From positions 62,001 to 126,000 of the forward strand of contig NZ_QICJ01000001.1 of the NCBI RefSeq assembly GCF_003201105.1: a DNA stretch of 64,000 nucleotides, in the 5' to 3' direction. The notes under the pieces are model-generated. The model worked only from the letters and a program-made list of their open reading frames with translations. It did no database searches and was not told the DNA's origin. Shown here piece by piece: positions 9,101 to 35,873 of this stretch (the stretch's first letter is position 1; each line of letters starts with the position of its first letter). This DNA is from Dyella sp. AtDHG13. Its GTDB lineage: Bacteria; Pseudomonadota; Gammaproteobacteria; Xanthomonadales; Rhodanobacteraceae. A program made the translations under genes and the position numbers.

Positions 9101-9192
9101 GAGAAACCCTGTCGCAATGGCTGACCCGCGCCGACGGAGCGCTGTACGAAGCCAAGCACGGCGGCCGCAATCGCTGCGTGGCCGCGCACTGA
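6115..9192 (+). CDS. Sensory diguanylate cyclase with N-terminal beta-propeller
   Basis: 1025 aa, GTG start with GGAG about 9 nt upstream. Order: signal sequence (about 22-42); a periplasmic two-component-regulator propeller with many repeats of the form D-x-x-G-x-L-W-(I/V)-G-T (about 50-700); a Y_Y_Y domain (about 720-805); one membrane helix (about 812-832); a short coiled coil; and a GGDEF domain (about 860-1022). The active-site signature is GGEEL, with Leu in place of the usual Phe. An inhibitory RxxD site (RDTD) lies five residues before it. It should make cyclic di-GMP in response to a periplasmic ligand, probably a sugar polymer or peptide by analogy with other propeller sensors. Its TGA stop is also the left flank of a mobile-like repeat. 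Confidence 0.9.
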   Translation: MAQRPGRATKQGVRGGAAAWNAARLVVLFWLAMVPALCLGAARDPWAPFDAPWFDRIGVNDGLPHSITTTLAQDSRGLIWIGTLSGLVRYDGYRMQVFSATGGKSDIPDAYVRCLLTLPDGGLLVGTNSGGLSRFNPLDNTFRSYLVGRGGTSDRKIYAMTPDGSRGVWIATERGIDYLDLGSNRITPVPLAEGMSPRSFGILQDRAGNLWVGNVAGLFVRRSGESRFTRVEHPANDANVDAVLSDGIWALREDREGRLWAGSTQSGAAYRDASGRWHAVPGFSGYPRDHSRRATVRAFSEMSGDTLWIATDGDGVLAYDVNAGSLHAIVHDTAQPSSLPGDSVRDLLQDSSGNLWVATDLGVARYNPDARKAFALQPSTSDSRSLANTNVRGIFVDSRQRIWLAMSAGRIDVIDLADGAIRHLELNGVQARRDVQAFAEMPDGTLWVGTQGLATINPDTLAIHGSAIPEMDDKPVLHLLADDGQLLIGTYDGVYRYDTRTHALAHFTHDANDPGSLSSDTVRRIARIGNDIWYVTGRGISIAGSALQNHGFENLFHRPGDNTSLPNNLASSIAMDPQGNLLVGTYGGLAILQPRSAGEPYRFNTIGIANGLPSDNVNAVQPDDLGNPWVSLPNGLAMIDANTHAVHTLGLRDGLRISSYVYAAAARAPGGELLFGGLGGLTVVRPSWQPRDEADAPLAITYAAVNGAPLAFGKLPRSGESLAIRSRNRSLRVDFALLDYEAPAETSYSYRMEGFDEEWIEVPRGGLPTAIYTNLPHGDYKLRLRAQTHGMQPRVIESGVDVSVEPRWYETIQALVAAGILALVAIVGVIQLRTLYLRRQARQLQQQIDLRTQDLLVANKRLDELANTDALTGACNRRRLLELAEEVRALSADGQACIALLDLDRFKRINDTYGHLAGDAVIRHACRIMQEQSRDTDIIGRYGGEELLACLPASTLEQGMAVAERIRAALAEHPLEHDGHAIVVTVSIGVAAYRAGETLSQWLTRADGALYEAKHGGRNRCVAAH

Positions 9193-9364
9193 GAGCCCGC
9201 TCGAAATCTCGCATGAGCGCACATTTCTCCTCACCGTCATCCCCGCGAAAGCGGGGATCCAGTGACTTTTACTCGCCGCGAGAAGGCTTAAAGACACTGC
9301 TCCCCGCTTTCGCGGGGATGACGGTGAGGGAGCAGGTACTGCTCAGAAGATTTCGAGCAGGCTC
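9193..9364. mobile_element. MITE-like element R1 with 3-bp TGA duplication
   Basis: 172 bp non-coding element filling the gap after the diguanylate cyclase gene. The ends are imperfect inverted repeats: GAGCCCGCTCGAAATCT on the left, and the complement of the right end reads GAGCCTGCTCGAAATCT. Inside is a perfect 29-bp inverted repeat (9229-9257 with 9301-9329) built from CGTCATCCCCGCGAAAGCGG-type palindromes. The triplet TGA flanks both sides (9190-9192 and 9365-9367); the left one is the gene's stop codon. TNA triplets are the duplication known for some IS5-family (IS1031-type) elements. No transposase is inside. Confidence 0.7.
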
Positions 9365-9377
9365 TGAGGTACCGCAT

Positions 9378-10040
9378 TCAACCGAAGTGACGGTGCCGGT
9401 AAATGGCGTAACCCAGGCCCACGATGCCGGTCAGCGCCGCCGGCGCCAGCAGCACGCGCTCCTGCACCACGGCGAAACCCAGCGCACCCGCGGCGGCACC
9501 CACGATGAAACAGCTCGCCACCAGCAGGCACACCTGGATGCGCAACGTATCGACCTCGAGTCCACGCAGGCGCTGGCCGAGATAGATGCCCAGGTCGGTG
9601 AAGATGCCCGACAGATGCGTGGTACGCAGCGTGGCGCCGCTATACGTGCTGACCATGGCGTTCTGCAGCCCGCAGGCCATGGAGGCGAGATAGAGGCCCA
9701 GATCGCTCTCGCCATGGATCAAGGGCGTCGCCACGAACAACAGTAGCGATTCCAGCATCAGCACCACGCCGTAGCGCCGGCCCAGCTGCAGCGTGCGCTG
9801 CTGCACGATGAAGCCACTGAGCATGGCGCCGAACAGGAACGCACCGATCACGAAGCCCCAGTGCAGCACTTCGGCCGCATCCAGCCGGGCCAGCGCGATG
9901 CCCAGCTCCGTGCTGGTGCCGGTGAGATGCGTGATCGGCTGATGCCGGAAGCACAGGTATCCCACCGTATTGATGCTGCCCGCGATCAGCGCGAGCAGAC
10001 CGCCACCCACCCAGGCCCAGCGCGGCAGCTGGCGCAGCAT
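9378..10040 (-). CDS. DUF1275 (YoaK-like) membrane protein
   Basis: 220 aa with about six hydrophobic segments. The start (PRWAWVGGGLLALIAGSINT) and the conserved pattern GTSTELG and HLSGIFTDLG are typical of the YoaK/DUF1275 family, inner-membrane proteins of unknown transport function. It begins 6 nt after lolA and is probably read through from it. No further role can be inferred. Confidence 0.85.
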   Translation of the reverse strand: MLRQLPRWAWVGGGLLALIAGSINTVGYLCFRHQPITHLTGTSTELGIALARLDAAEVLHWGFVIGAFLFGAMLSGFIVQQRTLQLGRRYGVVLMLESLLLFVATPLIHGESDLGLYLASMACGLQNAMVSTYSGATLRTTHLSGIFTDLGIYLGQRLRGLEVDTLRIQVCLLVASCFIVGAAAGALGFAVVQERVLLAPAALTGIVGLGYAIYRHRHFG

Positions 10041-10046
10041 GGCCGC

Positions 10047-10706
10047 TCAGTTCTTGATCGGCTGCGTCTGGATCACCGGCGCGTCGCCGATCACGTCGGC
10101 CCCCGGCGGCGGCACGAAATTGAAGGTTTCCGGTGGAATCGCCACGTTGCGATGCCAGTCGGAGAAGCGGATGTCGGTGACGGCGCCGAGCTGGTCGCGG
10201 AACACCATGCGGGCCAGGCCGTTGGCGTCGAAGCCGAGGTCGGCGTAGTCGAACTGCGGATCCTTGGCCTTGGAGGTCAGGCGTAGCCAGCTCAGGCCAT
10301 CGTGATCGCCCTGCTCCACCGCATTGAAGTCCTTGTCCATCTGCTTCACGTTGGTCAGCACGGTCAGCGGACTGTGCGATTCCTCGGAGCTCTGCACGCG
10401 CACCGTGACTTGTTCCAGGTCCGGGTCGTACAGCCACACGCGGCTGCCATCAGCCACGATGGTCTGCTTGGACGGCGCCAGCGTCTCCCAGCGGAACTGC
10501 CGTGGCGCTTCCAGCGCCAAGGTGCCGTTGCTCGGCTTGCCGGCGTTGCCGTTGGCGTCCTTCAGCGTTTGCGAGAACTTGCCGGTGAGCGAGTGCAGGC
10601 CGGTGGTGAACGCGTCGAGTTTGCTGCGCGCCGGGCCGGCGGCCATGGCGAGGCTGCTGAGGGAGAAGGCGAGCGTGGCGGTGGCGAGGAGGAGCAGGCG
10701 TTTCAT
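10047..10706 (-). CDS. lolA: Outer-membrane lipoprotein carrier protein LolA
   Basis: Periplasmic chaperone that takes lipoproteins from the LolCDE exporter to the outer membrane. 219 aa with a signal peptide ending near SSLAMAAG. The mature part has the family pattern TGKFSQTLKD, RQFRWE and DGSRVWLYDPDLEQVTV, which form the open beta-barrel. It is encoded downstream of ftsK on the same strand, a conserved gammaproteobacterial arrangement, but the two are separated by 222 bp holding a paired REP repeat. Confidence 0.95.
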   Translation of the reverse strand: MKRLLLLATATLAFSLSSLAMAAGPARSKLDAFTTGLHSLTGKFSQTLKDANGNAGKPSNGTLALEAPRQFRWETLAPSKQTIVADGSRVWLYDPDLEQVTVRVQSSEESHSPLTVLTNVKQMDKDFNAVEQGDHDGLSWLRLTSKAKDPQFDYADLGFDANGLARMVFRDQLGAVTDIRFSDWHRNVAIPPETFNFVPPPGADVIGDAPVIQTQPIKN

Positions 10707-10795
10707 GGGTGCCTTGTGAGTGAGGCGGTGGAGCGAATTGTGAGACCGAAAGGCTTAACGGAGAAACCCATCCGATGCCGCGAAACCTTCAAGAC

Positions 10796-10921
10796 CGTCA
10801 TTCCGGCGCAGGCCGGAATCCAGCAGCGGTAGCGTGAGATTTTCGCACCAGTCCGGAAGCTGGACCTCATCGCGACAACCCGCCGCATCGAAACTGGATT
10901 CCGGCCTTCGCCGGAATGACG
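10796..10921. repeat. Paired REP-like palindromes between ftsK and lolA
   Basis: Two inverted copies of a 28-bp unit, CGTCATTCCGGCG-x-x-GGCCGGAATCCAG at 10796-10823 and its complement at 10894-10921, separated by 70 bp. Each unit is itself a palindrome, so the transcript can fold into two small hairpins or one large one. The same unit recurs near 15.9, 24.7 and 35.7 kb. It lies between ftsK and lolA and could act as an RNA-stability or partial termination element. Confidence 0.8.
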
Positions 10922-10928
10922 AGCAAGA

Positions 10929-13253
10929 TCAATTCTTCGGCGGTGGCGGCGCCAGCACCTCGCGGTTGCCGTTGTGCTGCGGCGCGCTGACCACGCCGTC
11001 CTGCTCCATCTGTTCGATCAGGCGCGCGGCGCGGTTGTAGCCGATGCGCAGGTGGCGCTGCACGCCGGAAATCGAGGCGCGACGCGTCTCGGTGACGATG
11101 CGCACGGCCTTGTCGTACAGCTGCGCGTCGGCGTCGCCGCCTTCCTCGCCGTCCTGCGGCAGGCCGGAGTCGTTGATGAACTTGCCGTCACTGGTCGCCT
11201 GGACTTCTTCCAGCACACCCTCGATGTACTGTGGCGAGCCCTGCGCCTTGAGCCAGTTCACCACGCCATGCACCTCGTGGTCGTCCACGAAGGCGCCGTG
11301 CACGCGTTCCGGCGTAGCCGTGCCTGGCGGCAGGTAGAGCATGTCGCCGTGGCCCAGCAGGGCTTCGGCGCCGGACTGGTCGAGGATGGTGCGCGAGTCG
11401 ATCTTGCTCGACACCTGGAAGGCGATGCGGGTGGGGATATTGGCCTTGATCAGGCCGGTGATCACGTCCACCGACGGGCGCTGCGTCGCCAGCACCAGGT
11501 GCACGCCGGCGGCGCGGGCCTTCTGCGCGAGGCGGGCGATCAGTTCCTCGACCTTCTTGCCGACGATCATCATCATGTCGGCGAACTCGTCGATGATGAT
11601 CACGATGTACGGCAGCGGCTCCAGCGGTTCGGCCGCCAGGTTCGGCATTTCGGGGTTCGGGCGGAACAGCGGATCCAGCAGCGGCTGGCCGGCGTTCTCA
11701 GCGTCCCTCACCTTCTTGTTGAAACCGGCGAGGTTGCGCACGCCCACGGCGGCCATCAGCTTGTAGCGGCGCTCCATTTCGGCGACGCACCAGCGCAGCG
11801 CGTTGGCGGCTTCCTTCATGTCGGTCACAACCGGCGCGAGCAGATGCGGGATGCCTTCGTAGACCGAAAGCTCCAGCATCTTCGGGTCGATCATGATCAT
11901 GCGCACGTCCTTGGCGCTGGCCTTGTACAGCAGGCTCAGCACCATGGCATTCACGGCGACGGACTTGCCCGAACCGGTGGTGCCCGCCACCAGCAGGTGC
12001 GGCATCTTGGCGAGGTCGGCCACCACCGGGCGGCCGGCGATGTCCTTGCCCAGCGCCAGCGCCAGCGGCGACTTCATGGCGTCGTACTTGTCCGAACGCA
12101 GGATCTCGGAGAGATAGACGATCTGCTTCTTGGCGTTGGGGATTTCCAGGCCGATCACGTTCTTGCCCGGAATCACGTCCACCACGCGCACGCTGACCAC
12201 GGACAGGCCACGCGCGATGTCCTTGTCCAGGCTGGACACCTGCGAACCGCGCACGCCGGCGGCGGGCTCCAGCTCGAAGCGCGTGATGACAGGGCCCGGA
12301 TAGACGCCGACCACCTTGGCCTCGATGCGGAAATCCTTGAGCTTCAGCTCGACCTGGCGCGAGAGCACTTCCAGCGTTTCTTCCGAGTAGCCAGGCCCCT
12401 GCTCCGGCGCCTCGTCCAGCAGCGACAGCGGCGGCAGCTCGCCCGGCGCGGAGGCGCCGGTGAACAGCGGAATCTGCGTTTCCAGCTTGGCGCGCTCGCT
12501 CTTCACCACCGGCGCGGGCGCGGTTTCGATGCGCACGGGCTCGCGCTTGGCCTGTTTCACGGCTTCGGTCTTCTTGACCACCTCGCGCTCGGCGCGCGCC
12601 TGGCGTGCGGCCAGCACTTCCGGCGCCTCGCGCAGCTTGCCGCCGAACCAGCCGGCGATCTTGAGTACGCCTTGGCCGGTGAGATCGGCCACCTTGAACC
12701 ACGACAGGCCCGTGGCCAGGGTCACCGCGATCAGGAACATCGCCAGCAGCAGCAGCGACGCCCCGCCGCCCAGCGCATGCGACAGGCCGCGCCCCACCCA
12801 CATGCCGATGATGCCGCCCACGCCCTGCGGCAGCACGGGCTCATCGATATTGAGATACAGCAGTGCCGGCAAGGTGATGAAGAAGAACACCGAGCCGATC
12901 AGGCGCAGCGAGGGCTCCCACGGCTGCACGGTGCGCTCGCCGCGATGGCGCAGCACCTGCACGCCAAGGAACAGCAGCAGCAGCGGGAAGAAATAGGAAA
13001 CCAGTCCGAAGATGTAGCGCAGGACGTTGGCGATGTTCGCGCCGACCTCGCCGCCGAAATTGCGCGCATGCTCGACGGTGCCGGCGTGGCCCCAGCTCGG
13101 ATCCTGGTCGTTGTAGCTGAACAGGCAGACCAGCAGATACAGCGCCAGCGGCAGCAGCAGCAGCGCGCCGGCCTCGCGCAGACGGCGCTTCAGTTCCTCA
13201 CTGAGGCCCTCTGGCTCTTTCTTGTCCTTCTTGACGTTCGCGGTACGCGGCAC
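10929..13253 (-). CDS. ftsK: DNA translocase FtsK
   Basis: Septum-anchored DNA pump that clears the chromosome dimer region at division. 774 aa, with four or more membrane helices in residues 25-190 and a short charged linker of about 100 residues (the E. coli linker is several hundred). The motor has Walker A GTTGSGKS (424-431) and Walker [11 protein letters not shown]. The C-terminal winged-helix gamma domain (about 695-760, with [20 protein letters not shown]) recognises KOPS-type polar DNA sequences and touches XerD. The short linker gives it SpoIIIE-like length, usual for this order. Confidence 0.97.
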
Positions 13254-13341
13254 GTGGTCCTTATCCTGTCTTGAAACACAAGTCCGGCCGCCGTGGGGCG
13301 GCCGGACAGTACAACATCCGCCGAAGCGGCAGGGCTAGACC

Positions 13342-14406
13342 TTAGATCATGCCCTTGAGCGCCGGATGAACCAGCTCGCCGCCGTCCACGTTGATGCCCC
13401 CGCGCAGCGGTTCGAACTGGCGCCATTCGTTGCCGGCGGCCAGACGCTGCACGTACGGCAGGATAGCGGCAGAAATCGCCACCGACGAGGTCTGCGGCAC
13501 GGCACCCGGCATATTCGTGACGCAGAAGTGGGTCACGCCGTGCACGTCGTAGGTCGGCTCCTTCCAGGTGGTCGGGCGCGAGGTCTCGAAGCAGCCGCCC
13601 TGGTCGATGGAGATGTCCACCAGCACGCTGCCCTTCTCCATGGTCTTGACCATCTCCTCGGTGACCACGCGCGGCGCCTTGGCGCTGGGGATCAGCACGG
13701 CGCCGACCACCAGGTCGGCAGTGGCCACTTCTTCGGCCACGCTGGACTCATAGGCGTACAGCGCGGTGACGTTCGGGCCCATGGCCATCATTTCGGCCAG
13801 GCGATCCTGGCGCTTGTCGAACACCACCACGTTGGCGCCAGCGGCGGCCGCGAGGGCGGCAGCGTTGCCGCCGGCGGCGCCGGCGCCCAGCACCACGACC
13901 TTGCCGCGCGGGGTGGAGGCCATGCCGCCCAGCAGCTTGCCCTTGCCGCCCTGCGGACGGTGCAGCAGCGTGGTGCCGATCTGGGTGGCGATGCGGCCGG
14001 CGATCACCGACATCGGCAGCAGCAGCGGCAGGCCACCGTTCTCTTCCACCGACTCGAACGCCACGCCGGTCAGGCCGATGTCGAGCAGGCTCTTGGTCAG
14101 CGCCGGCTCGGCGGCCAGGTGCAGGTAGCAGAACAACAGGTGGTGCTTCTTGAGCAGGGCCAGGTCGCCGGCGATCGGCTCCTTCACCTTCACGATCAGC
14201 TCGCCGGCCTCGTACAGGGCGGCGGCATCGGCCACGACCTTCACGCCGACCTTGGCGTAGGCCTCGTCGGAGAAGCCGCTCTTCTCGCCAGCGCCGGACT
14301 GGATGAACACCTCGTGGCCACGGCGCACCAGGTCGGCGGCGGCGGCGGGGATGAGGGCAACACGACCTTCAAGGGTCTTGGTTTCGGAAGGAATGCCGAT
14401 ACGCAT
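13342..14406 (-). CDS. ald: Alanine dehydrogenase
   Basis: NAD-dependent enzyme interconverting L-alanine with pyruvate and ammonia. I start it at 14406 (MRIGIPSETKTLEGRVAL), the conserved N-terminus, rather than 63 nt upstream; this gives 354 aa. Visible are the substrate-binding KVKEPI, the catalytic-region YLHLAAEP, the dinucleotide fold VLGAGAAGGNAA and the C-terminal region VHGVTHFCVTNMPGAVP. It has a leader of about 200 nt with several predicted hairpins (see the 14461-14583 entry). Confidence 0.95.
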   Translation of the reverse strand: MRIGIPSETKTLEGRVALIPAAAADLVRRGHEVFIQSGAGEKSGFSDEAYAKVGVKVVADAAALYEAGELIVKVKEPIAGDLALLKKHHLLFCYLHLAAEPALTKSLLDIGLTGVAFESVEENGGLPLLLPMSVIAGRIATQIGTTLLHRPQGGKGKLLGGMASTPRGKVVVLGAGAAGGNAAALAAAAGANVVVFDKRQDRLAEMMAMGPNVTALYAYESSVAEEVATADLVVGAVLIPSAKAPRVVTEEMVKTMEKGSVLVDISIDQGGCFETSRPTTWKEPTYDVHGVTHFCVTNMPGAVPQTSSVAISAAILPYVQRLAAGNEWRQFEPLRGGINVDGGELVHPALKGMI

Positions 14407-14460
14407 GGGGAGTGGATCCTGATGGGGAGCTTGAGTGGCAACGACGCCGGGCCGCGGGCG

Positions 14461-14583
14461 ACCCGGCAATACCTGTGCCGGCAGCCTTGAATCGTCCCCG
14501 CGTCTTCCCCATGCTTCCGGGTTCGGACGCCTCGCTCCGACCCTGCCGTGAAGCGGCAGGAAACCACGGCACGCGAGGGAGCG
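14461..14583 (-). ncRNA. Candidate structured leader RNA upstream of ald
   Basis: The space between ald and trxB holds several GC-rich inverted repeats that would sit in the ald 5' leader. Helix A pairs 14542-14548 with 14554-14560 (7 bp, 5-nt loop). Helix B encloses it, pairing 14530-14535 with 14573-14578. Helix C pairs 14493-14497 with 14525-14529, with an inner CCC/GGG. Helix D pairs 14463-14468 with 14476-14481. I cannot match it to a known riboswitch. It could be a regulatory leader, or a chance result of high GC. Confidence 0.35.
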
Positions 14584-14616
14584 AATGACTCAACAAGTCG
14601 CCAGCAAACCCGAAGG

Positions 14617-14622
14617 ATTATA
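14617..14622 (-). promoter_or_regulatory. Possible ald promoter -10 (TATAAT)
   Basis: A perfect TATAAT reads toward ald about 210 nt before its start codon. The -35 region is weak (GTGAAA at 19 bp spacing). It fits a long leader for ald. Perfect TATAAT is rare in DNA this GC-rich. Confidence 0.35.
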
Positions 14623-14735
14623 ACCATGATGGGCAGGTCGTTTTCACATTCCCGCCACGCCGCGCGAGCAGACCACCTTTGCGCAGTTGCAGCAAAGTCA
14701 AAGGGATACGGCCCATCCCGCTGAAAACCAGCTGA

Positions 14736-15818
<1,083 letters not shown>

Positions 15819-15826
15819 TGATCCTC

Positions 15827-15867
15827 GGGCGCGCCGTGAGTTTCATTCTGGCGCGCCCAAGGTTTTT
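15827..15867 (+). terminator. Intrinsic terminator after trxB
   Basis: Perfect 9-bp stem GGGCGCGCC/GGCGCGCCC (15827-15835 with 15850-15858), 14-nt loop, then AAGG and five T. It starts 9 nt after the trxB stop. Confidence 0.7.
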
Positions 15868-15870
15868 GAT

Positions 15871-15996
15871 CGTCATTCCGGCGCAGGCCGGAATCCAGTT
15901 TCCGTAGTGATCGGTTGTCGCCTCGAACCTGTTGGTTGGCGTCATCGCGACAATCGAGCCTCACCGTTACTGGATTCCGGCCTACGCCGGAATGAC
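15871..15996. repeat. Paired REP-like palindromes after trxB
   Basis: Inverted copies of the CGTCATTCCGGCG...GGCCGGAATCCAG unit at 15871-15898 and 15970-15996, with 71 bp between. Same layout as the pair at 10796-10921. It fills the gap between trxB and the next plus-strand gene. Confidence 0.8.
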
Positions 15997-16040
15997 AGCG
16001 ATGTAACGCTGAGGCAACTTGCACCAACACCTGGACTGAC

Positions 16041-17177: not shown

Positions 17178-17178
17178 G

Positions 17179-18576: not shown

Positions 18577-18666
18577 GCCGGATCCCTGAGCGTTGTAGAG
18601 GAAGGGCATGCTAACCACATCCCCATGCCGGTAGCATGTACCGGACATCCTGGTTTTGATGGCCCC

Positions 18667-19398: not shown

Positions 19399-19420
19399 GG
19401 CGCTACGCGCAGGCTACCGC

Positions 19421-20524: not shown

Positions 20525-20527
20525 CCG

Positions 20528-21004: not shown

Positions 21005-21010
21005 CGCCCG

Positions 21011-21412: not shown

Positions 21413-21508
21413 CTTGACTCCCCTTGACCCCGCCCATCCGGAGCGACGCCGCAGTGTAGCGCAGCGGAAGGCGGCGCCCTGAGCCTGATCGTCAGCCGGT
21501 GGGTGACA

Positions 21509-22484: not shown

Positions 22485-22491
22485 CCAGATA

Positions 22492-23748: not shown

Positions 23749-23927
23749 GTAGTGGGATCGCGATGTGGGACGGCAACAGGGCAAGGATACCCGAACCGCC
23801 GGACACTCCCTAGCAAGCGTCGCAGCGCCGTGCGCGATGCGGCAAAACCGCGCATTGGAGCCATTCTGAGCACTTGAGCGAGGATCATGAAGGCCTGCCC
23901 CAACGCACGGAAACAGGAGTGCATCCC

Positions 23928-24665: not shown

Positions 24666-24677
24666 GTGTTCTTTTCG

Positions 24678-24786
24678 GAGCTTGTTCACGATCTCCATGA
24701 AGTTCATTTCCCTCACCGTCATTCCGGCGTAGGCCGGAATGACGGTGAGGGGGATTAAGCGCTCACGCGAGATTTAGAACAGACTC
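24678..24786. mobile_element. MITE-like element R2 with central perfect palindrome
   Basis: 109 bp between the convergent fnr and acetyl-CoA hydrolase genes. The left end GAGCTTGTTCACGATCTCC matches the ends of element R4; the complement of the right end, GAGTCTGTTCTAAATCTCGC, resembles R1. The centre (24710-24751) is a 19-bp perfect stem of the CCGTCATTCCGGC type with a 4-nt loop, able to terminate transcription both ways. The right end touches the hydrolase TGA stop (TCA on the plus strand); the left flank is TCG, one base off a duplication. Confidence 0.6.
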
Positions 24787-26733
24787 TCAGCCAGCCGCCC
24801 TGCGCAAAGCGGCTTTTAACAGCCGCTGTTGAATACGATCACCAACGGACGTCGGCCGGGTCAGCCCCATGCGCTCCAGCGCCTCGTCCTCACCGGGCAC
24901 GGCCTCGCCGGGTGCCAGCGCGGCTTTCACCACCTCGATCTTGCCGCGCCACGTCGCGCTGCGTTTCTTGAGCCAATCGAGCGCGGGCAGCAGGCGCTGC
25001 TCCACCTCGGTGAAGTCGCTGCCGAACGGAAACGGCGACAGCAGGCCCTTCGCCTGCCAGGGCGCAAGCACCTCCCGAAGATGCTCGGGACGGTTGTTCC
25101 GCCAGCGCTCGGGAATCTGGAAATCGGCGGCCAGCTTGCCGTGCGCCTTGGCCTCCGCGCAGAGGGCATCGATAAAGCGCGCATCGGCAATGGAGAGCAT
25201 GGCCTCCACGCACTCGCTGTCGGTCTTGCCGCGCAGGTCGGCCACGCCGTATTCCGTCACGAACAGGTCGCGCAGGTGGCGCGCGATGGTGGTGTGCCCG
25301 TAGTTCCAGCGGATATTGGTTTCGACGCCGCCAGGCCCCTGCCGCGTCGACCGCAGCATCAGGATGGAGCGGCCATCGGGCAGTTCGTGCGCCATGGCCA
25401 CGAAGTTGTATTGCCCGCCCACGCCGCTGACCACCTCGCCGTTCTCCAGCCCGTCGGACACCGCCGAGCCCAGCAGGGTCGCCATCATGCAGGTATTGAA
25501 GAAACGCGCGCCGCGACGCTGCAGCGTGGCGAGCATCTGGTGGTCGCCATACAGCTGGTTGACGTTGGAGACGCGGCACATGTCCAGCGCATCCGGATCG
25601 CTCGCGTCGAGCTCGCCCAGCCATTGGTATAGCTCGCGCGAGCCCAGGAAGAACGCGCCACGCAGGTAATGGCCGCCGGGTGTCTCGGGCGACAGCCGTC
25701 CGCACGCGGCCGCGCGCTCCAGCGCCATGTTGTCCCAGGCGCGGCGCTTGAGGATGCCTGCGCGCTGCAGGTGCATGAAACCATCCATCACCATTTCGCT
25801 GGCGCCGTACAGGCCGGTGCGCAAAGGCGCAAGGCCGCCCATGCGCGAAGCCAGGGCGTGCGTGCCGCCGCGCGGATCCAGCGCCACCAGCGCGCGACGC
25901 CACTGCGTGTTGTCCTCCTGCCGCCAGCGCAGCGCATAGACCAGTGCGTCGGACAACGCGCCGATGCCGATCTGCAGGCAGCCGCCGTCGCGCACCAGTG
26001 CGCTGGCATGCATGCCCAGCGCGTATTCGGTCAGATCGATGGGCTGGCGCGGCACGGCGAACAAGGGCGGCGCCTGTTCCGTGTTGAGTTCGATGTCGAA
26101 GTAATCCCGCTCCACTTCGGCATGGCCGCTGATATAGGGCAGATCCGGATGCACCGCCGCCACCATCAGCGGCCGTGGCTTGCCCGCCTGCACCACGCGG
26201 TCGATGAAGTCGAACGTCAGGTCCGGATTGCACGACAGGCTGTAGCGTACGCCCTCGGGCGTTTCGCGGCGCGCCACCAGCTGCACGAGCAGGTTGATGT
26301 CCTGCACGGCCAGATCGCGGGCGACGTGCGTGTAGTTCTGGCTGATGTAGTTGCGCTGCGCACTGCCCGACCGCAGCAGCGCACCCGACTGCATGTAGAA
26401 CTCGTGCACGGCCACGTTGGACGGCAACTGGTTGCGCGCCTGGTCGAGCGCATACTCGGGATCGACCGCGCCGACGCCGAAATGCCGCTCCACGAACGGC
26501 CCGACGAAACGCGCCTCCAGACCCGGCGCCGGATGCGGACGCGTCAGGGACAGCGCGGTATAGAGCGCGAGCGAACGGGAGGTGTCGGCCTTGGTCAGCC
26601 GGTACAGCGCGTTGAGCAGGTCATGCGGCTTGCCCAGCCCCAGGGGAGCGGCCACGCGCAGGTCCGGGCCGATTCTCTCGGCGATCTGCTGGGCGCATGC
26701 TTCGGTGTCGGTATGACATTGCTCAGGCGACAT
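24787..26733 (-). CDS. Acetyl-CoA hydrolase/transferase family protein
   Basis: Family I CoA-transferase or hydrolase that handles acetyl-CoA and related thioesters (acetate, succinate, propionate). Start at 26733 (MSPEQCHTDTEACAQQIAER), 648 aa; the open frame runs 252 nt further upstream with only Arg-rich sequence. Visible are GIGALSDALVYAL, SGVGGQYNFV and the C-terminal VTEYGVADLRGKTDSE. At about 650 aa it belongs to the long subfamily, longer than the usual 500. Next to fnr, so a fermentative or overflow role is possible. Confidence 0.85.
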   Translation of the reverse strand: MSPEQCHTDTEACAQQIAERIGPDLRVAAPLGLGKPHDLLNALYRLTKADTSRSLALYTALSLTRPHPAPGLEARFVGPFVERHFGVGAVDPEYALDQARNQLPSNVAVHEFYMQSGALLRSGSAQRNYISQNYTHVARDLAVQDINLLVQLVARRETPEGVRYSLSCNPDLTFDFIDRVVQAGKPRPLMVAAVHPDLPYISGHAEVERDYFDIELNTEQAPPLFAVPRQPIDLTEYALGMHASALVRDGGCLQIGIGALSDALVYALRWRQEDNTQWRRALVALDPRGGTHALASRMGGLAPLRTGLYGASEMVMDGFMHLQRAGILKRRAWDNMALERAAACGRLSPETPGGHYLRGAFFLGSRELYQWLGELDASDPDALDMCRVSNVNQLYGDHQMLATLQRRGARFFNTCMMATLLGSAVSDGLENGEVVSGVGGQYNFVAMAHELPDGRSILMLRSTRQGPGGVETNIRWNYGHTTIARHLRDLFVTEYGVADLRGKTDSECVEAMLSIADARFIDALCAEAKAHGKLAADFQIPERWRNNRPEHLREVLAPWQAKGLLSPFPFGSDFTEVEQRLLPALDWLKKRSATWRGKIEVVKAALAPGEAVPGEDEALERMGLTRPTSVGDRIQQRLLKAALRRAAG

Positions 26734-26810
26734 GGAGCGACGTGACGAGGTCGATGTTGCGTATTGGTGACACGGGCGAAGTGAATACCGCTTGAAGAAG
26801 TTACGACCCC

Positions 26811-28283: not shown

Positions 28284-28408
28284 CCGGCCAATACCCAATA
28301 GTTTCATAGGGATATGCGGCATGCCTTAGGTCACGGCTGCGCTTGATGACGCAAGCGGATGTAATCCCGGCGTTCCTCAGGCGAATCTCATGATAGGCTC
28401 GTCACTTC

Positions 28409-29782
28409 ATGCGCTCGCCAGACGACTACAGTTCCGACCAGGCCGGCCCGCCGCCGCGCCAGATCCTGACGCCCAGTTCGCTCAACCGACTGGTGCGGGA
28501 CCTGCTGGAAGACGCGCTGCCGCTGATCTGGATCGAGGGCGAGCTGTCGAACGTGGCCCGCCCCGCCTCGGGCCATCTGTACTTCACCTTGAAGGACGCC
28601 AACGCCCAGGTGCGTTGCGCCATGTTCCGCCCCAAGTCCACCTGGCTGAAATTCCGGCCCGGCGACGGCATGCACGTGCTGGTGCGGGCGCGCGTGGGGC
28701 TGTACGAGCCGCGCGGCGAATTCCAGCTGGTGGCCGAGCACATGGAGCCCGCCGGCGAAGGTGCCCTGCAGCGCGAGTTCGAGCAGCTCAAGGCGCGCCT
28801 GGATGCGGAAGGCCTGTTCCATCCCGACCGCAAGCGCGCCCTGCCCCGTTATGCGCGGCGCATCGGCGTCATCACCTCGGCCACCGGCGCGGCCATCCGC
28901 GACGTGCTCAGCGTGATGTCGCGGCGCTGGCCGCTGGCCGACGTCGAGGTGCTGCCGGTGCCCGTGCAGGGCCGCGAGGCGCCGCCCGCCATCGTGCAGA
29001 TGCTGCGCCGCGCGTCCGCGAGCGGACGCTACGACGTATTGCTACTGACCCGCGGCGGTGGATCGCTGGAAGATCTCTGGGCCTTCAACGACGAACAGGT
29101 CGCCCGCGCCATCCACGCCAGCGCGGTGCCGGTGGTGTCGGCGGTGGGCCACGAAATCGACTTCAGCATCGCCGACTTTGTCGCCGACCTGCGCGCACCC
29201 ACGCCATCGGCCGCGGCCGAACTGCTGGTGCCCGATGCCCACGCGCTGCAACGCCACCTGCGCCAGTTGCAGCAACGGCTGGTGACGCTGGAGCAGCGCC
29301 GCCTGCAATCGCGCAGCCAGCGCGTGGACCATCTGTTCGCGCGCCTGCAGGCGCAGCGTCCGCAGGCACGACTGGCGCGTGATCGCGAGCGCCTGACCCA
29401 TCTGCATCGCCGCCTGCTCGGTGTGCAACGGGAACAGACGCAACGACGCCGCAACCAGGTGGAGCGCGCGCATGCGCGGCTGCTCGCGCAACATCCCAGG
29501 CTGCGCCTGATGCTGCTGCAACGCCGCTCGGCCGAACTGATGCAGCGTCTGCGCCACGCCATCGAACGCAAGCTGGAACGCGAGCGGCTCAACCTGCGCC
29601 AGACCGGCCGCGCCCTGCACGCCATCAGCCCACTGGCCACGCTGGAACGCGGTTACTCCATCCTGTTCGACAAGGATGGCAAGGTGCTGCGATCGGCCGC
29701 CGGCGTGGATGAAGGCACACCCGTGCGTGCGCGACTGGCAGATGGCGAATTGCCGCTGATGGTCACCAAGAAGAGCCACTGA
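28409..29782 (+). CDS. xseA: Exodeoxyribonuclease VII large subunit
   Basis: Nuclease subunit degrading single-stranded DNA, 457 aa. The N-terminal OB fold has IWIEGELSNVARPASGHLYF; the catalytic domain has RRIGVITSATGAAIRDVL, LLTRGGGSLEDLWAFNDE and AVGHEIDFSIADFVAD. A long Arg/Gln-rich coiled coil follows (about 285-400), where the small subunits bind. xseB is not adjacent. Confidence 0.96.
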   Translation: MRSPDDYSSDQAGPPPRQILTPSSLNRLVRDLLEDALPLIWIEGELSNVARPASGHLYFTLKDANAQVRCAMFRPKSTWLKFRPGDGMHVLVRARVGLYEPRGEFQLVAEHMEPAGEGALQREFEQLKARLDAEGLFHPDRKRALPRYARRIGVITSATGAAIRDVLSVMSRRWPLADVEVLPVPVQGREAPPAIVQMLRRASASGRYDVLLLTRGGGSLEDLWAFNDEQVARAIHASAVPVVSAVGHEIDFSIADFVADLRAPTPSAAAELLVPDAHALQRHLRQLQQRLVTLEQRRLQSRSQRVDHLFARLQAQRPQARLARDRERLTHLHRRLLGVQREQTQRRRNQVERAHARLLAQHPRLRLMLLQRRSAELMQRLRHAIERKLERERLNLRQTGRALHAISPLATLERGYSILFDKDGKVLRSAAGVDEGTPVRARLADGELPLMVTKKSH

Positions 29783-29852
29783 ACGCGCCTCGCCTCACGC
29801 GCCCTGAACGCTGCCTGCCGCATGCTCCGCGCTTCGATGCAAGGAGCGAGGC

Positions 29853-31496
29853 ATGAAGGCAGCGCAACTGTTCGTCAAAGCACTGGAAGCCGAGGGCGTG
29901 CACAGCATCTTCGGCGTTCCCGGTGAAGAGAACCTGGATTTCGTCGAGGCCCTGCGCGAATCCTCCATCCGCCTTATCGTCACCCGCCATGAGCAGGCCG
30001 CCGGCTTCATGGCCGCCACCTGGGGACGGCTCACCGGCGAAGCCGGCGTCGCCCTTTCCACGCTTGGGCCCGGCGCCACCAACCTGGTCACGGCCGCCGC
30101 CTATGCACAGCTGGGCGCCATGCCCATGCTGATGATCACCGGCCAGAAACCCATCCGCGAGCACAAGCAGGGCCTGTTCCAGCTGGTCGACGTGGTCGAC
30201 ATGATGCAGCCGCTGACCAAGTACACGCGGCAGATCGTGTCCGCCGCGACCATCCCGGCACGCGTGCGCGAAGCCTTCCGCCGCGCCGAGGAAGAGCGCC
30301 CCGGCGCCGTGCACCTGGAACTGCCCGAGGACATCGCGCGCGATACGGTCGACGAGGCCATCCTGCTGCCCACCGAATACGCGCGACGCCCCGCGCCCGA
30401 CGATGCGGCGCTGGTGCAGGCCGCCGAGGCGATCACCCGGGCGAAGCATCCCATTCTGATGATCGGCGCCGCCGCCAACCGCCAGCGCACCACCGTCGCG
30501 CTGCGCGACTTCATCGACAAGCTGGGCATTCCGTTCTTCACCACGCAGATGGGCAAGGGCGTGATCGACGAGGATCACCCGCTGTGGCTGGGCAATGCGG
30601 CGCTGTCGGACGGCGACTTCGTGCATCGCGCCATCGACGCCGCCGACGTGATCGTCAACGCCGGCCACGACGTGGTGGAGAAGCCGCCGTTCTTTATGCG
30701 CAAGGGCCGGCGCACGGTGATCCATATCAACTTTTCCAGCGCCGAAGTGGATGCGGTGTATTTCCCGCAGATCGAAGTGGTGGGCGACATCGCCCACACG
30801 GTCGAACGGTTGACCGACGCCCTGCAGCCGCAGGCGCATTGGAACTTCGATTACTTCGACCGGGTGCGCACGGCATTCCACAAACAGTTGCAGGATCATG
30901 CGCGCGACGACCGCTTCCCCATGCATCCGGTGCGCATCGTCGACGACACGCGCCGCTTCATGCCCGACGACGGCATGCTGTGCCTGGACAACGGCATGTA
31001 CAAGATCTGGTACGCGCGCTATTACCGCGCGCGCCAGCCCAACACCATCCTGCTCGACAACGCGCTCGCCACCATGGGCGCCGGCCTGCCATCGGCGATG
31101 GCGGCGAAAATGGTGTACCCCGAGCGCAAGGTGCTCGCCATCTGCGGCGACGGCGGCTTCATGATGAACGCGCAGGAGCTGGAAACCGCCGTGCGCCTGA
31201 AGCTGGACCTGGTGATCCTGCTCGTGCGCGACGACGCCTACGGCATGATCCGCTGGAAACAGGCCGAGATGGGTTATCCCGACTACGGCATGCTGTTCGG
31301 CAACCCCGATTTCGTCGCCTTTGCGCAGGCGCACGGCGCGCATGGGCATCGCCCGGCGAGCGCCGACGAGTTCCTGCCGACGCTGGAGCGCGCGTTCAAC
31401 GCCGGCGGCGTGCACCTGATCGATCTTGCCATCGACTACTCGGACAACCACCGCATACTCAACGAAGAGATCCCGCGGCTCAGCGCAGCGGTCTGA
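29853..31496 (+). CDS. Acetolactate synthase large-subunit-like ThDP enzyme
   Basis: 547 aa, strong site AAGGAGCGAGG. It has the ThDP-activating Glu in RHEQAAGFMA, the N-terminal GVPGEENLDF, and the cofactor motif starting GDGGFMMNAQELETAV. The length and the lack of an adjacent small subunit suggest a catabolic or unlinked enzyme rather than the branched-chain IlvB. It forms a two-gene unit with an aldehyde dehydrogenase 21 nt downstream, so the substrate may be an aldehyde or 2-oxoacid other than pyruvate. Confidence 0.8.
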   Translation: MKAAQLFVKALEAEGVHSIFGVPGEENLDFVEALRESSIRLIVTRHEQAAGFMAATWGRLTGEAGVALSTLGPGATNLVTAAAYAQLGAMPMLMITGQKPIREHKQGLFQLVDVVDMMQPLTKYTRQIVSAATIPARVREAFRRAEEERPGAVHLELPEDIARDTVDEAILLPTEYARRPAPDDAALVQAAEAITRAKHPILMIGAAANRQRTTVALRDFIDKLGIPFFTTQMGKGVIDEDHPLWLGNAALSDGDFVHRAIDAADVIVNAGHDVVEKPPFFMRKGRRTVIHINFSSAEVDAVYFPQIEVVGDIAHTVERLTDALQPQAHWNFDYFDRVRTAFHKQLQDHARDDRFPMHPVRIVDDTRRFMPDDGMLCLDNGMYKIWYARYYRARQPNTILLDNALATMGAGLPSAMAAKMVYPERKVLAICGDGGFMMNAQELETAVRLKLDLVILLVRDDAYGMIRWKQAEMGYPDYGMLFGNPDFVAFAQAHGAHGHRPASADEFLPTLERAFNAGGVHLIDLAIDYSDNHRILNEEIPRLSAAV

Positions 31497-31517
31497 GCCC
31501 ACCATTCGGAGCCATCC

Positions 31518-32948
31518 ATGCTTGCCAAGAGTTACCCCTATTACCTTGCCAACCAGCCGCAGACGTCCAAGGAAACGATGGACGTGCTGGACAAGTACAG
31601 CGGCAAGGTGGCCACCAAGGTCGCCGTGCCCGACGCCAAGGCCGTCGAAAAAGCCATCGCCGCCGCCGTGAAGGCCACCGCCCCCATGCGCGAATTCAAG
31701 CCGTGGGCACGGCAGGAAGTGCTGCAGCATTGCGCGCAGCGTTTCAAGGAACGCCGCGAGGAACTGGCCTATGCGCTATGCGTGGAAGCCGGCAAGCCGA
31801 TCAAGGATTCCGACGGCGAAGTCACGCGACTGATCGAGACTTTCTCCATCGCCGCCGAAGAAGCCGTGCGCATCAATGGCGAAACCATCAACCTGGACCT
31901 TGCCAAGCGTCTCGACGGCTACCACGGCCACACCAAGCGCGTGCCGCTGGGCCCGGTGTCGTTCATCACGCCCTTCAATTTCCCGCTGAACCTGGTTGCG
32001 CACAAAGTCGCGCCCGCCATCGCCGCCGGATGTCCCTTCGTGCTCAAGCCGGCGGAGCGCACGCCGATCGGCGCGCTCATCATCGGCGAGGTGCTGGCGG
32101 AAACCGACCTGCCGAAGGGCGCCTTCTCCATCCTCAACCTGGACGGCAAGCACGCCAGCCCGCTGGTGGAAGACCCGCGCTTCAAGCTGCTCTCCTTCAC
32201 CGGCAGCCAGATCGGCTGGGACCTTAAGGCGAAGGCCGGCCACAAGAAAGTGACCTTGGAACTCGGCGGCAACGCCGCGTGCATCGTCGATGCCGACCAG
32301 GCGCCGAAACTCGACTACGTGATCGACCGCCTTGTGTTCGGCGCGTTCTACCAGTCCGGCCAGAGCTGCATCAGCGTGCAGCGCATCTATGTGCACGAGT
32401 CGCTTTACGACGAACTGAAAAAGCGGCTGGTCGCCGCCGTGAAGAAACTCAAGGCCGGCGACCCGAAGAAGAAAGACACCTTCCTCGGCCCGATGATCGA
32501 CGAGGCCGCCGCCGAACGCCTGCACGGCTGGATCGAAGAGGCGCGCGAGGGCGGCGGCAAGGTGCTCTGCGGCGGCAAGCGCAACGGCACCATGCTCGAA
32601 GCCACCCTGATGGAAAACGTGCCCACCAGCGCCAAGGCCCACCGCATGGAAGCCTTCGGTCCGTTCGCCCTGCTCGCACCGTTCAAGACCTTCGACGAAG
32701 TGGTGGCGATGGTCAACGATTCGGACTACGGCCTGCAGGCCGGCATCTTCACCGACAGCCTCTCCAACGCCATGCGCGCCTGGAACGAACTGGACCAAGG
32801 CGGCGTCATCGTCAACGACGTACCCAGCTTCCGCGTCGACAACATGCCCTACGGCGGCGTGAAACTCTCCGGCATCGGCCGCGAAGGCGTGCGCTGGGCC
32901 ATCGAGGACATGACGGAATTGCGCCTGATGGTGATGCGCGAGCGGTGA
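31518..32948 (+). CDS. NAD(P)-dependent aldehyde dehydrogenase
   Basis: 476 aa. It has the ALDH catalytic set: PFNFPLNLVAHKVAPAIAAG with the conserved Asn, FTGSQIGWDL, the general-base Glu in LELGGNAACIV and the nucleophile Cys in YQSGQSCISVQR. The start shows no strong Shine-Dalgarno and lies 21 nt after the ThDP-enzyme stop, consistent with one transcript. The substrate is unknown. The TGA stop touches repeat element R3. Confidence 0.88.
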   Translation: MLAKSYPYYLANQPQTSKETMDVLDKYSGKVATKVAVPDAKAVEKAIAAAVKATAPMREFKPWARQEVLQHCAQRFKERREELAYALCVEAGKPIKDSDGEVTRLIETFSIAAEEAVRINGETINLDLAKRLDGYHGHTKRVPLGPVSFITPFNFPLNLVAHKVAPAIAAGCPFVLKPAERTPIGALIIGEVLAETDLPKGAFSILNLDGKHASPLVEDPRFKLLSFTGSQIGWDLKAKAGHKKVTLELGGNAACIVDADQAPKLDYVIDRLVFGAFYQSGQSCISVQRIYVHESLYDELKKRLVAAVKKLKAGDPKKKDTFLGPMIDEAAAERLHGWIEEAREGGGKVLCGGKRNGTMLEATLMENVPTSAKAHRMEAFGPFALLAPFKTFDEVVAMVNDSDYGLQAGIFTDSLSNAMRAWNELDQGGVIVNDVPSFRVDNMPYGGVKLSGIGREGVRWAIEDMTELRLMVMRER

Positions 32949-33117
32949 GAGCAAACCGCCTCCCCGTCGGCCTCACATGAGCACACATCTGCCTTCACCG
33001 TCATCCCCGCGAAAGCGGGACGAGCGCTCAGCGCGAAGAACGCCCGTAGGGCGGCCCATGGGCGAGCGCAGCGAGTAATCCAGCGACTTTGCTCCCGGCG
33101 AGAAGGTTAAGAACACC
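32949..33117. mobile_element. Truncated MITE-like element R3 carrying a 57-bp insert
   Basis: From the aldehyde dehydrogenase stop codon onward this copies the left half of R1: ATGAGCxCACAT, TTCACCGTCATCCCCGCGAA and, further on, GAGAAGGTTAAGAACAC. Between GAAAGCGGG and ATCCAGCGACTTT lies an extra block, 33021-33077, absent from R1. It contains two small palindromes (GCCC-GTA-GGGC and GCCCATGGGC). The right arm of the element is missing; the phosphate-permease remnant begins where it should be. Confidence 0.6.
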
Positions 33118-33118
33118 A

Positions 33119-34159
33119 GATGACAGCCCTTCCCAGTTGAAAGACTTCTCTCCTTCGCGGGGCGTGTTCCGCGGCCTGGTGTTCTCGCCCATCGCCGGCT
33201 TTCTGCTCGCCGGGCTGCTGATGCTGCTGCTCAAGCAACTGGTGAAGATTCCCGCGCTGTACCGCGCGCCCGAGGGCAAGACGCCACCGCCGTGGCCTAT
33301 CCGCGCGCTGCTGGTGCTCACCTGCACCGGCGTGAGCTTCAGCCACGGCTCCAACGACGGCCAGAAAGGCATGGGCCTGATCATGCTGATCCTGATCGGC
33401 ACCGTGCCGACGGCCTATGCACTCAACGGCGCGGTATCGGGTGGCTAGGTGAAGACCTTCCACCAGGTTTCGGTCGATACGCAGCGCGTGCTCGGCAGCC
33501 TGGCAGGCAGCGTGACCTTCGATGGCGATCCGCGCGCCGCCATCACCAGCGCCGTGCAGCAGCGCGCGGCGCAGACGACCACCGCGCCGGCGCTCGCCCA
33601 GCTGATCGGGCAGATCGATCACGAGGTCGGCAATCGTCCCTCGCTCAAATCCGTGCCGCCCGAGCAGATGGGCAACGTGCGCAATGACATCTACCTCGCC
33701 AATGCGGCCATTCCGCTGGTGCTGGCGCAGGCCGGGCTCAGCAAGGAGCAGACCGGCACGCTTACCGCGTGGCGCGGCCTGGGCACGCAGGCCATCCAGT
33801 TCATCCCGCCGTGGGTGAAGGTGGCCGTGGCGCTCGCGCTGGGCCTGGGCACCATGGTGGGCTGGAAGCGTATCGTGGTGACGGTGGGCGAGAAGATCGG
33901 CAAGGAGCACCTGACCTATGCGCAGGGCGCCTCGGCCGAACTGGTGGCGATGGGCCTGATCCAGGCGGCCGACATGTACCACCTGCCGGTCAGCACCACG
34001 CATGTGCTCACCTCGGGCGTCGCCGGCACCATGGCCGCCAACGGTTCCGGGCTGCAATGGTCCACCGTGCGCAACCTGCTGATGGCCTGGGTGCTCACCC
34101 TGCCCGCCTCGATCCTGCTGGCGGGCGGGCTGTACGTTGTCCTCCGCCAGATCTTCTGA
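33119..34159 (+). pseudogene. Broken PiT-family inorganic phosphate transporter
   Basis: About 345 codons match the C-terminal part of large PiT phosphate permeases: FSPIAGFLLAGLLMLLL, TCTGVSFSHGSNDGQKGMGL (second PiT signature), LPVSTTHVLTSGVAGTMAAN. The N-terminal roughly 200 residues, including the first signature, are absent, and an in-frame TAG at 33446-33448 splits the rest. Both halves are in one frame, so the stop is a point change, not a frameshift. The 5' break coincides with the end of repeat R3. Residual open frames are long (120 and 236 codons), so decay looks recent. Confidence 0.85.
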
Positions 34160-34200
34160 GCGTTAGCGGATCGGGGGCGGAGGCGATCGGCCGTCCCTTA

Positions 34201-34466
34201 GAGCCTGTTCACGATCTCCGCGTGGCCCGCGCCGGAGGCTGTTTGCGCGCAGGACAAGGAAGAGCGAGGGAGTGTACGTCCGTACACGACCGAGCGATGA
34301 CGCCGGCCTGTGGGCAAACAGACCCGGCCCGAAGGGTTGTTCTTGAGTGGCCGCCCAACGACACCGCGCGGCTTGACCTGCCCACCAGGCAGGCGCTGCG
34401 TCGCGCGCTGCCGCCGGGCGGCCACTCAAGAACAACGCGGGCTACGTGGAGATCGTGAACAGGCTC
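34201..34466. mobile_element. MITE-like element R4 with exact TTA duplication
   Basis: 266 bp. Terminal arms 34201-34230 and 34437-34466 are inverted repeats matching at 28 of 30 bases and starting GAGCCTGTTCACGATCTCC. TTA flanks both ends (34198-34200, 34467-34469). Nested inside are inverted repeats: 34239-34253 with 34307-34321 (partial), a perfect 21-bp pair 34336-34356 with 34416-34436, and the palindrome GTGTACG-TC-CGTACAC at 34272-34287. No open frame looks real. It fits a non-autonomous element moved by an IS5-type transposase elsewhere in the genome. Confidence 0.75.
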
Positions 34467-34585
34467 TTAGGGTTGCACGGCGGTCTTCACGCGCCGCATC
34501 TGGCGCCGCGGTCACGGCTATTGTTCAATCATCGAGCCCGTCACGACGGGCTGTGGCCGTCGCGTCCCTTCAAGGAGCTTGCCGG

Positions 34586-35614
34586 ATGCACGTGAAAACC
34601 GCCCTTTGGCTGGGCGCCCTGACGCTTGCCACGTCCGCGTGGGCGCAGCATGCGCCAGCGCCTTCGGGCAGCAGCCCCGTCCCCGCGGCGCCCTCGACGG
34701 CCATCCAGCTGCAGGCGGTGACCGTGCGTGGCGAACAACCGGGCCCCGCGCTGTGGGAAGTGCGCCGCGGCAACCACATCCTGTGGATCGTCGGCACGCT
34801 GGCGCCGCTGCCCAAGCATGCCGAATGGCAATGGGCGAAACTGGAACAGGCGCTGTCGCGCGCCAGCGAGCTGCTGGAAGCGCCCTCGGCACGCCTGAAG
34901 ATGCCGCCCAGCCTGTACGCGCGCCTGGCCCTGCAGCCGTCGGCCAAGTTGAACCCGGGTGGCGCCACGCTGCAACGGCTGTTGCCGCCGGATACCTACA
35001 CGCGCTGGTTGGCGCTTCGCCACCAGTATCTTGGCGATGACGATGCGCTTCAGTACATGCGCCCGATCATCGTTGCCCAGCAGCTTTACGAAAAGGCGCT
35101 GGCGGCGAACGACCTCACCAACGACATCGACGTCGCCGACATGGTGGAGAAGCTCGCCCGCCACCACGGCGTACGCGTGATCGGCGTGCGCTACGAGCTG
35201 GTGGTCACGCATGCGCCGCCTGCCGTGCCCTCCGAGCAGGACCAGCAGAACGGCATCGCCTGCCTCGACGAAACCATGCACCTGGTCGAGCACGACATGC
35301 CCAAGCTCACCGAGCGCGCCAATGCCTGGGCCACGGGCGACATGAAGACACTGGAGAGCCTGATTCCGCAGAAGAGCTATGAGCCGTGCATCGTAGCGTC
35401 GATCAATGGCGACTTCGAGCACCAGCTCAACATTCCCGACCTGCCCCAGCGCATCGAATCGGCCTGGATGGAGGCTGCCGATGCCGCCATGGTCCGCAAC
35501 CGGTACACGGTGGCCATCCTGTCGATGGACCAGTTGCTGTCTTCGGACGGCTATCTCGCCAAGCTGAAGCAGCGCGGCTTTATCGTCCGCTCGCCGGACG
35601 AAGCGCAGCCCTGA
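34586..35614 (+). CDS. TraB/GumN family exported protein
   Basis: 342 aa from 34586, with AAGGAG upstream. Signal peptide about 1-21 (ALTLATSAWAQ). A Pro/Ser-rich spacer leads into the TraB/GumN fold: ALWEVRRGNHILWIVGTLAPLP near the start and RNRYTVAILSMDQLLSSDGYLAKLKQRGF near the end, the beta-strand/helix pattern of this metalloprotease-like family. The second GxxH element usually present at the C-terminal end is not obvious. Function unknown. Confidence 0.8.
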   Translation: MHVKTALWLGALTLATSAWAQHAPAPSGSSPVPAAPSTAIQLQAVTVRGEQPGPALWEVRRGNHILWIVGTLAPLPKHAEWQWAKLEQALSRASELLEAPSARLKMPPSLYARLALQPSAKLNPGGATLQRLLPPDTYTRWLALRHQYLGDDDALQYMRPIIVAQQLYEKALAANDLTNDIDVADMVEKLARHHGVRVIGVRYELVVTHAPPAVPSEQDQQNGIACLDETMHLVEHDMPKLTERANAWATGDMKTLESLIPQKSYEPCIVASINGDFEHQLNIPDLPQRIESAWMEAADAAMVRNRYTVAILSMDQLLSSDGYLAKLKQRGFIVRSPDEAQP

Positions 35615-35784
35615 TTGCCGGTTCACGATCTCCGTGACATTGATTGCCCTCACCGTCATTCCGGCGCAGGCCGGAATCCAGTGACCGCCACCTTGGGTTT
35701 TCGCGAGAGAGCTTCCGGAAAATCTTCGGCTGCCGCGGAAACTCAGCGCTTTCGCCACTGGATTCCGGCCTGCGCCGGAATGAC
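35615..35784. repeat. Element R5: degraded MITE-like left end plus paired REP units
   Basis: Begins directly after the TGA of the TraB/GumN gene. The first 52 bases align without gaps to the left end of R2, with GGTTCACGATCTCC intact and the first bases changed. It then carries two inverted REP units (35654-35681 and 35758-35784). I cannot find a matching right terminal repeat, so the element is eroded or truncated. Confidence 0.6.
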
Positions 35785-35873
35785 AGTAAGGAAAATGTGC
35801 GCCCAAGGAATATCGTGCGCAGCCCCGGCAGAAAGCCGCACATCGCGTTGATGCACGGCTTTTGCCTCGTGGC

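Follow-up and report, generated by a model that had tools for sequence, protein, structure and literature searches.

The short elements that stand directly behind stop codons in the genome of Dyella sp. AtDHG13 are, in our judgement (probability about 0.8), non-autonomous miniature inverted-repeat transposable elements (MITEs) of the IS5 family, NF033580 type, and a C-TNA-G target together with selection explains their positions at stops. We analysed a stretch of 64,000 nucleotides, hereafter the window (G000:C1:62001-126000, from a genome of 5.10 Mb in 32 contigs), which contains five such elements, R1 to R5, and compared this genome with 19 other Dyella genomes, among them that of Dyella sedimenti (G009). 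The stop-codon niche is real in D. sedimenti and weak elsewhere, and it is mostly the product of a target rule that spares stops and of selection.

Elements at stop codons in the window

Genes were called with a codon-usage gene caller written for this analysis. Called genes end exactly at R1, R2 (on the minus strand), R3 and R5, and the four abutted genes carry the Pfam domains GGDEF, AcetylCoA_hyd_C, Aldedh and TraB/GumN, which confirms that these elements adjoin TGA stops of real genes, as a sequence-only reading of the window had claimed. R1 (9193-9364, 172 bp) follows the GGDEF gene 6193-9192, whose TGA stop at 9190-9192 (plus strand) is the left copy of the target duplication; the right copy is at 9365-9367 (plus strand). 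Its terminal inverted repeats (TIRs) of 17 bp, at 9193-9209 and 9348-9364, differ from each other by one mismatch (GAGCCCGCTCGAAATCT / AGATTTCGAGCAGGCTC) and flank two inverted CGTC palindromes, the first of them at 9235-9262 (plus strand). The right end of R2 (24678-24786, 109 bp, one CGTC palindrome) touches TCA at 24787-24789, the TGA stop of the minus-strand gene 24787-26733, while the left flank reads TCG, so that the target duplication is no longer present. R3 (32949-33118) begins directly after the TGA at 32946-32948; its end matches in GAGC only, no right end was recognised in its sequence and the right boundary, drawn by eye, is uncertain, and it contains one damaged CGTC palindrome similar to that of R1. 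R5 (35615-35826), a decayed copy, begins after the TGA at 35612-35614 with a left end of three mismatches, two inverted CGTC palindromes (from 35654 to about 35789) and a degraded right end. R4 (34201-34466, 266 bp) has perfect 17-bp TIRs and the exact TTA duplication already noticed from the letters alone (34198-34200 and 34467-34469), and lies away from a stop, 41 bp beyond one.

The five had been taken for related copies, and the GAGCCTGTTC-type ends common to R1, R2, R4 and R5 bear this out in part. A single family comprising R1 to R5 is ruled out: the IS5-type end GAGCCTGTTC is shared by two families, A, which is the R4 type (266 or 311 bp, plus a 51-bp form in D. sedimenti), and B, which encloses CGTC palindromes, an inverted pair in R1 and R5 and a single one in R2, and to which R1, R2, R5 and probably R3, by its inner part and position only, belong. 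Paired ends are 40-311 bp apart, which leaves no room for a transposase gene. The family-A end with at most two mismatches matched 31 times in the AtDHG13 genome and 0 times for a reversed control, and with at most one mismatch it occurs in 13 of the 20 Dyella genomes, AtDHG13 included. A looser end pattern gave 277 matches at up to two mismatches against 115 for the control, and only its matches with 0-1 mismatch were followed. Stretches were fetched around 60 places in the AtDHG13 genome, 35 in D. sedimenti and 40 in ten other Dyella genomes; one place in genome G003 from the family-A end search and one two-mismatch place in AtDHG13 (C7:87959) were omitted.

Two groups of related sequences were seen beside these families. 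At 14 loci of the AtDHG13 genome (for example L004 4014, L041 4112 and L053 4077) family-B-like ends lie inside a conserved outer sequence like GCGCCTGYCTTG, which makes these loci either a longer-ended relative or a nest. Four D. sedimenti elements (L061 7338-7498, L075 2994-3156, L074 6647-6802 and L095 36-281) start with GAGCCTGTTC and continue with AACATCT or AAAATCT; a CTCCCAACCTCC core is present in three of them, and two are at a stop.

The target rule spares all three stop codons

IS5 subgroups usually duplicate TNA. In the window the duplications are TGA at R1 and TTA at R4. Among D. sedimenti copies with both ends at no more than two mismatches, 17 of 24 have identical flanking triplets, where shuffling expects 6.5; for the AtDHG13 genome the figures are 3/6 and 1.7. 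When the 17 D. sedimenti sites were reconstructed, C preceded the TNA in 13 and G followed it in 16. The insertion site is therefore about C-TNA-G, not TGA, and the TNA-preferring transposase accepting TGA that had been proposed holds as to the TNA target and the IS5 type, but TAA is over-used and TAG is kept as well.

Upon insertion, the left copy of TNA keeps TAA and TGA stops, since TNA includes both. A TAG stop survives by another route: the element starts with G, and this first G completes TAG after the TTA triplet, so that T-TA/G rebuilds the stop. At three loci (L062, L075 and L086) the site is common to two convergent genes, one strand reading TAA and the opposite one TAG. The 23 D. 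sedimenti stops that carry an element comprise 11 TAA (three of them also TAG on the opposite strand), 9 TGA and 3 TAG alone, whereas stop usage in a 400-kb sample of that genome is TGA 265, TAG 53 and TAA 44. TGA-specific targeting is ruled out by the favouring of TAA relative to its use and by the preservation of TAG; the niche is TNA, not TGA.

Stops predate the elements in three cases

At the R1 site, none of 18 orthologous loci has an R1-type end within 110 bases after the stop, and in 13 of them the next gene begins within 24 bases on the opposite strand. The sequence GCCGCGCACTGA is common to two of these loci (L209 and L211) and the window, and three others (L215, L217 and L223) carry different extra sequence after the stop. 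In two other Dyella species other repeats follow the orthologous stop, a GGCTTGTTCGAGG sequence at L215 and a CGTC palindrome at L223. The site of the 51-bp copy L077 is without element at 19 orthologous loci, where the stop is TGA in 12 cases and TAA in 7, and that of L155, a family B copy with a TAA duplication, is without element at three loci of about 70% identity, which read TAA once and TGA twice. Searched against the other 19 genomes, the flank of L075 gave no match at E<=1e-20. At R1, L077 and L155 the orthologous sites are empty, and therefore the stop predates the element.

We also considered that elements are retained at stops as their hairpin benefits the upstream gene, as a terminator or an mRNA 3' end. 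Hairpins directly after stops are indeed very stable (R1, z=-13.4; L077, z=-11.7), but such folding is expected of any element with long TIRs, an Rfam search of positions 9000-36000 gave no match, and the R1 and L077 insertions are missing from the orthologues in other species, which makes a benefit of this kind rather improbable.

Stop-codon counts in D. sedimenti

We found 46 elements in D. sedimenti, 25 of them at a stop; five were removed (four with another end type, one without a TNA flank). Of the remaining 41 family-A copies, 23 are on a stop, another 10 lie within 150 bp on the 3' side of a gene, 8 are in other places and none is in a gene. As the null we used a 400-kb sample of the same genome, at places picked irrespective of elements and with the same pentamer classes; for elements with one recognised end the missing flank base was assumed to match, which raised the expected number. 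Among all matching sites 7.0 elements are expected at stops (P=1e-8), and 18.7 gene-breaking insertions are expected where 0 were observed. When the null is confined to sites that break no gene, 15.6 are expected at stops (P=0.01), and among stop or 3'-side sites only, 16.8 of 33 are expected against the 23 observed (P=0.017). An earlier null, drawn from stretches around the elements, gave 24/44 at stops against 10.6 expected (P=7e-6).

In the 400-kb sample of this compact, GC-rich genome 46 of 86 harmless C-TNA-G sites are stop codons, and many of the insertions that survive selection against gene breakage are therefore on stops. Most of the stop bias is thus the target motif plus avoidance of gene disruption, with a modest residue of about 1.5-fold, for which selection against insertions into promoters or terminators, or target accessibility, are candidates. 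The three empty-site cases support insertion into a stop that already existed, and the earlier suggestion that insertion there is selected as harmless covers, together with the motif, most of the excess, the residue lying beyond it.

A transposition complex that DNA structure, transcription or the state of translation actively draws to stops or to the 3' ends of genes would act beyond motif and selection, and the excess of 23/41 over 15.6 in the whole set is in its favour. So is a subset, the 17 copies in which both ends are good and the duplications identical: 14 of them are at stops, compared with 6.0 expected from the 400-kb null (P=5e-5) or 3.9 from a genus null, and 15 of the 17 are on the 3' side, for which 7.2 at stops are expected against the 14. 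This subset was picked after the data had been seen, however, and identical duplications are better kept at stops because the stop codon itself is conserved; moreover, for CTWAG the null is drawn from 25 harmless sites. In a related autonomous element described below, just one of 13 copies is at a stop by our reading. We regard active targeting as unlikely.

A related IS5-family transposase

Genome G146, from a different genus of the bacterial family, carries an IS5-family element 848-849 bp long with the ends GAGCCTGTTCAAAGTCTC; it has 15 matches there, and of the 13 loci examined 10 show the same TNA triplet on both sides. The intact transposase at L116 has 262 amino acids, scores 261 bits with NF033580 and contains PF01609 and PF13340, and GAGCCTGTTCAAAGTCT-type ends surround the intact gene at L116 and at others. 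At L105, in genome G080, GAGCCTGTTCACGATCT stands at both ends of an element whose transposase frame has an internal stop. D. sedimenti holds relics with these ends, one of them joining an insertion sequence (IS) end to a family-A end. The chimeric relic at L097 (1327-1701) consists of part of an IS5-type transposase element that ends in a family-A end and adjoins a TGA stop.

A search of 233 genomes of the bacterial family with the transposase gave matches at E<=1e-10 in 12. A PF13340 search of the 20 Dyella genomes gave two matches, both in D. sedimenti and both under the cut-off, and a PF01609 search of seven genomes pointed to two places in AtDHG13 (L100 and L103), with no matching end pair in the fetched stretch. 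The search that the sequence-only reading had suggested, for an IS5-type transposase gene with the same ends, turned one up with ends of this kind in relatives (G146 and G080) and none in AtDHG13 itself. We infer that such an enzyme acts on the MITEs: supplied in trans, it would use the GAGCCTGTTC ends, insert at about C-TNA-G and duplicate TNA.

How far the niche extends

Several results weigh against the explanation by non-autonomous IS5-family elements, target motif and selection, or narrow its reach. The AtDHG13 genome gave no transposase match at E<=1e-10, and no autonomous partner with these ends was found in it; such a partner in the same genome is not strictly required of a MITE and may be lost. 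The autonomous G146 copies lie at a stop in only 1/13, as read with a gene model trained on Dyella. In the ten Dyella genomes other than AtDHG13 and D. sedimenti, identical triplets flank only 4/20 copies, with 3.4 expected. One of the 23 D. sedimenti stops depends on a weak gene call of 34 amino acids, and with 22 the P for harmless sites becomes 0.023. No excess is seen against a null made up of harmless sites that lie no more than 150 bp 3' of a gene (39/99 at stops, 41.8 expected; in D. sedimenti, 24/44 and 20.4), this null being set against elements not restricted likewise, while the 400-kb-sample null is the matched comparison. In the ten other Dyella genomes 12 of 38 copies with a TNA flank are at stops, where 7.4 are expected (P=0.05; four dropped), and in AtDHG13, with both families mixed and seven dropped, 3 of 17, where 3.0 are expected.

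The last figure is what one would see if the four window copies happened to lie at stops by chance and there were no niche at all. For D. sedimenti this is largely refuted by 23/41, against all matching sites as well as against harmless ones, and we hold chance as a general account to be very improbable. For family B in AtDHG13 we obtained 47 rows, of which three were judged chance and 44 kept, R3 having been missed by the pattern. Nine of the 44, three of them window copies, are at stops; a further 14 lie nested within another repeat and away from stops, and the non-nested copies outside the window give 6/27. At L038 the gene terminates one base inside an altered end, and this copy was left out of the stop count. 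The four of five at stops in the window look like a lucky cluster, and the systematic stop niche once claimed from them finds support in D. sedimenti but, as a rule, none in AtDHG13 or for family B outside the window.

Between R3 and R4 the window holds, at 33149-34159 on the plus strand, the remnant of a PHO4 phosphate transporter, two adjoining open reading frames separated by an in-frame TAG. It matches profile positions 118-350 of 350 only, with the decayed R3 just upstream and R4 41 bp downstream.

CGTC palindromes inside family B

In the accessible part of PMC3733652, CGTC repetitive extragenic palindromic (REP) sequences are defined by a CGTC tag, a stem of 8-9 bp starting with AT, a loop of 4-5 nt and a CCA tail; they are reported there without association with transposase genes or ends, and how they move is left open. 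R1 and R5 have palindromes that conform to the CGTC-1 definition (8-bp stem, 4-nt loop), and the one in R2 has the tag, stem and loop and lacks the CCA tail. The reported lack of transposase-type ends does not extend to family B, where IS5-type ends enclose the REPs. A CGTC tag is present on the side of the end in 18 rows, and in 14 of them the first tag is 39-43 bp inward of that end (42 bp in R1; 31, 51, 51 and 62 bp in the other four rows); in genome G005 a CGTC palindrome is enclosed in 12 of 15 element rows, two of which have one end in common.

The AtDHG13 genome contains 257 exact CGTC REPs, with the stem variants ATTCCGGC, ATCCCCGC, ATTCCCGC and ATCCCGGC. Of 51 CGTC units in 40 stretches of it, most are without IS5-type ends and several have a decayed end about 40 bp out; the sample excluded loci already fetched for their ends, and it gives no exact count of end-less units. 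Such units would be expected if family B were ordinary CGTC REP dimers whose IS5-like ends are a by-product of recombination, with no mobile unit. The regular spacing of tag to end speaks against this, as do R1, whose 172 bp form a unit with a duplicated TGA and with empty orthologous sites, and the family B copies L155 and L017 with identical duplications, and we think it a poor candidate. Family B looks instead like an IS5-type MITE that has captured CGTC REPs and that such a transposase would move, which suggests how CGTC REPs may move. A wider scheme, tentative and on balance doubtful, is that a stop-preserving IS5-type system has made stops a lasting refuge, which it also genuinely prefers to some degree over and above selection, and that the same ends captured and spread CGTC REP dimers, so supplying these REPs with a transposase of the kind thought to be missing.

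Comparison with known systems

The elements provide a counted case in which target motif, genome composition and selection jointly place mobile elements on stops, and in which TAA, TGA and TAG are spared by a simple rule, a TNA target joined to an element that starts with G. They share with the IS5-family NF033580 (transpos_IS5_3) insertion sequences and MITEs the GAGCC.. ends, the 3-bp TNA duplication and, in the related full element, a DDE transposase with PF01609 and PF13340; unlike those MITEs, they show a stop-codon excess in one species, TAG rebuilt via the first G, and no autonomous partner found in the AtDHG13 genome. No report of a stop-codon niche for IS5 MITEs was found in the open literature, as judged by titles and the starts of abstracts among the matches listed. 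GTAG REPs, which are not known to make a TNA duplication, are another similar system. As described in the accessible part of PMC3733652, GTAG REPs with their REP-associated tyrosine transposases (RAYTs) are likewise mostly downstream of genes and their ends often give neighbours a TAG stop, but the tag is another one (here CGTC) and the transposase is of the tyrosine, IS200/IS605-like class. QMITE2 of Coxiella burnetii, from what is accessible of PMC5896051, is similarly a TIR-bearing MITE, its short forms being REPs already described in PMC3733652, and its direct repeats of 7-9 bp point to another transposase. The inner palindromes of R1 and R5 resemble the CGTC REPs themselves, with the same tag, 8-bp stem starting with AT, 4-nt loop, CCA tail and inverted pair; unlike those described in the accessible part of PMC3733652, they lie between IS5-type ends, which in R1 are flanked by a TNA duplication, and family B thereby offers a concrete candidate for the movement of CGTC REPs.

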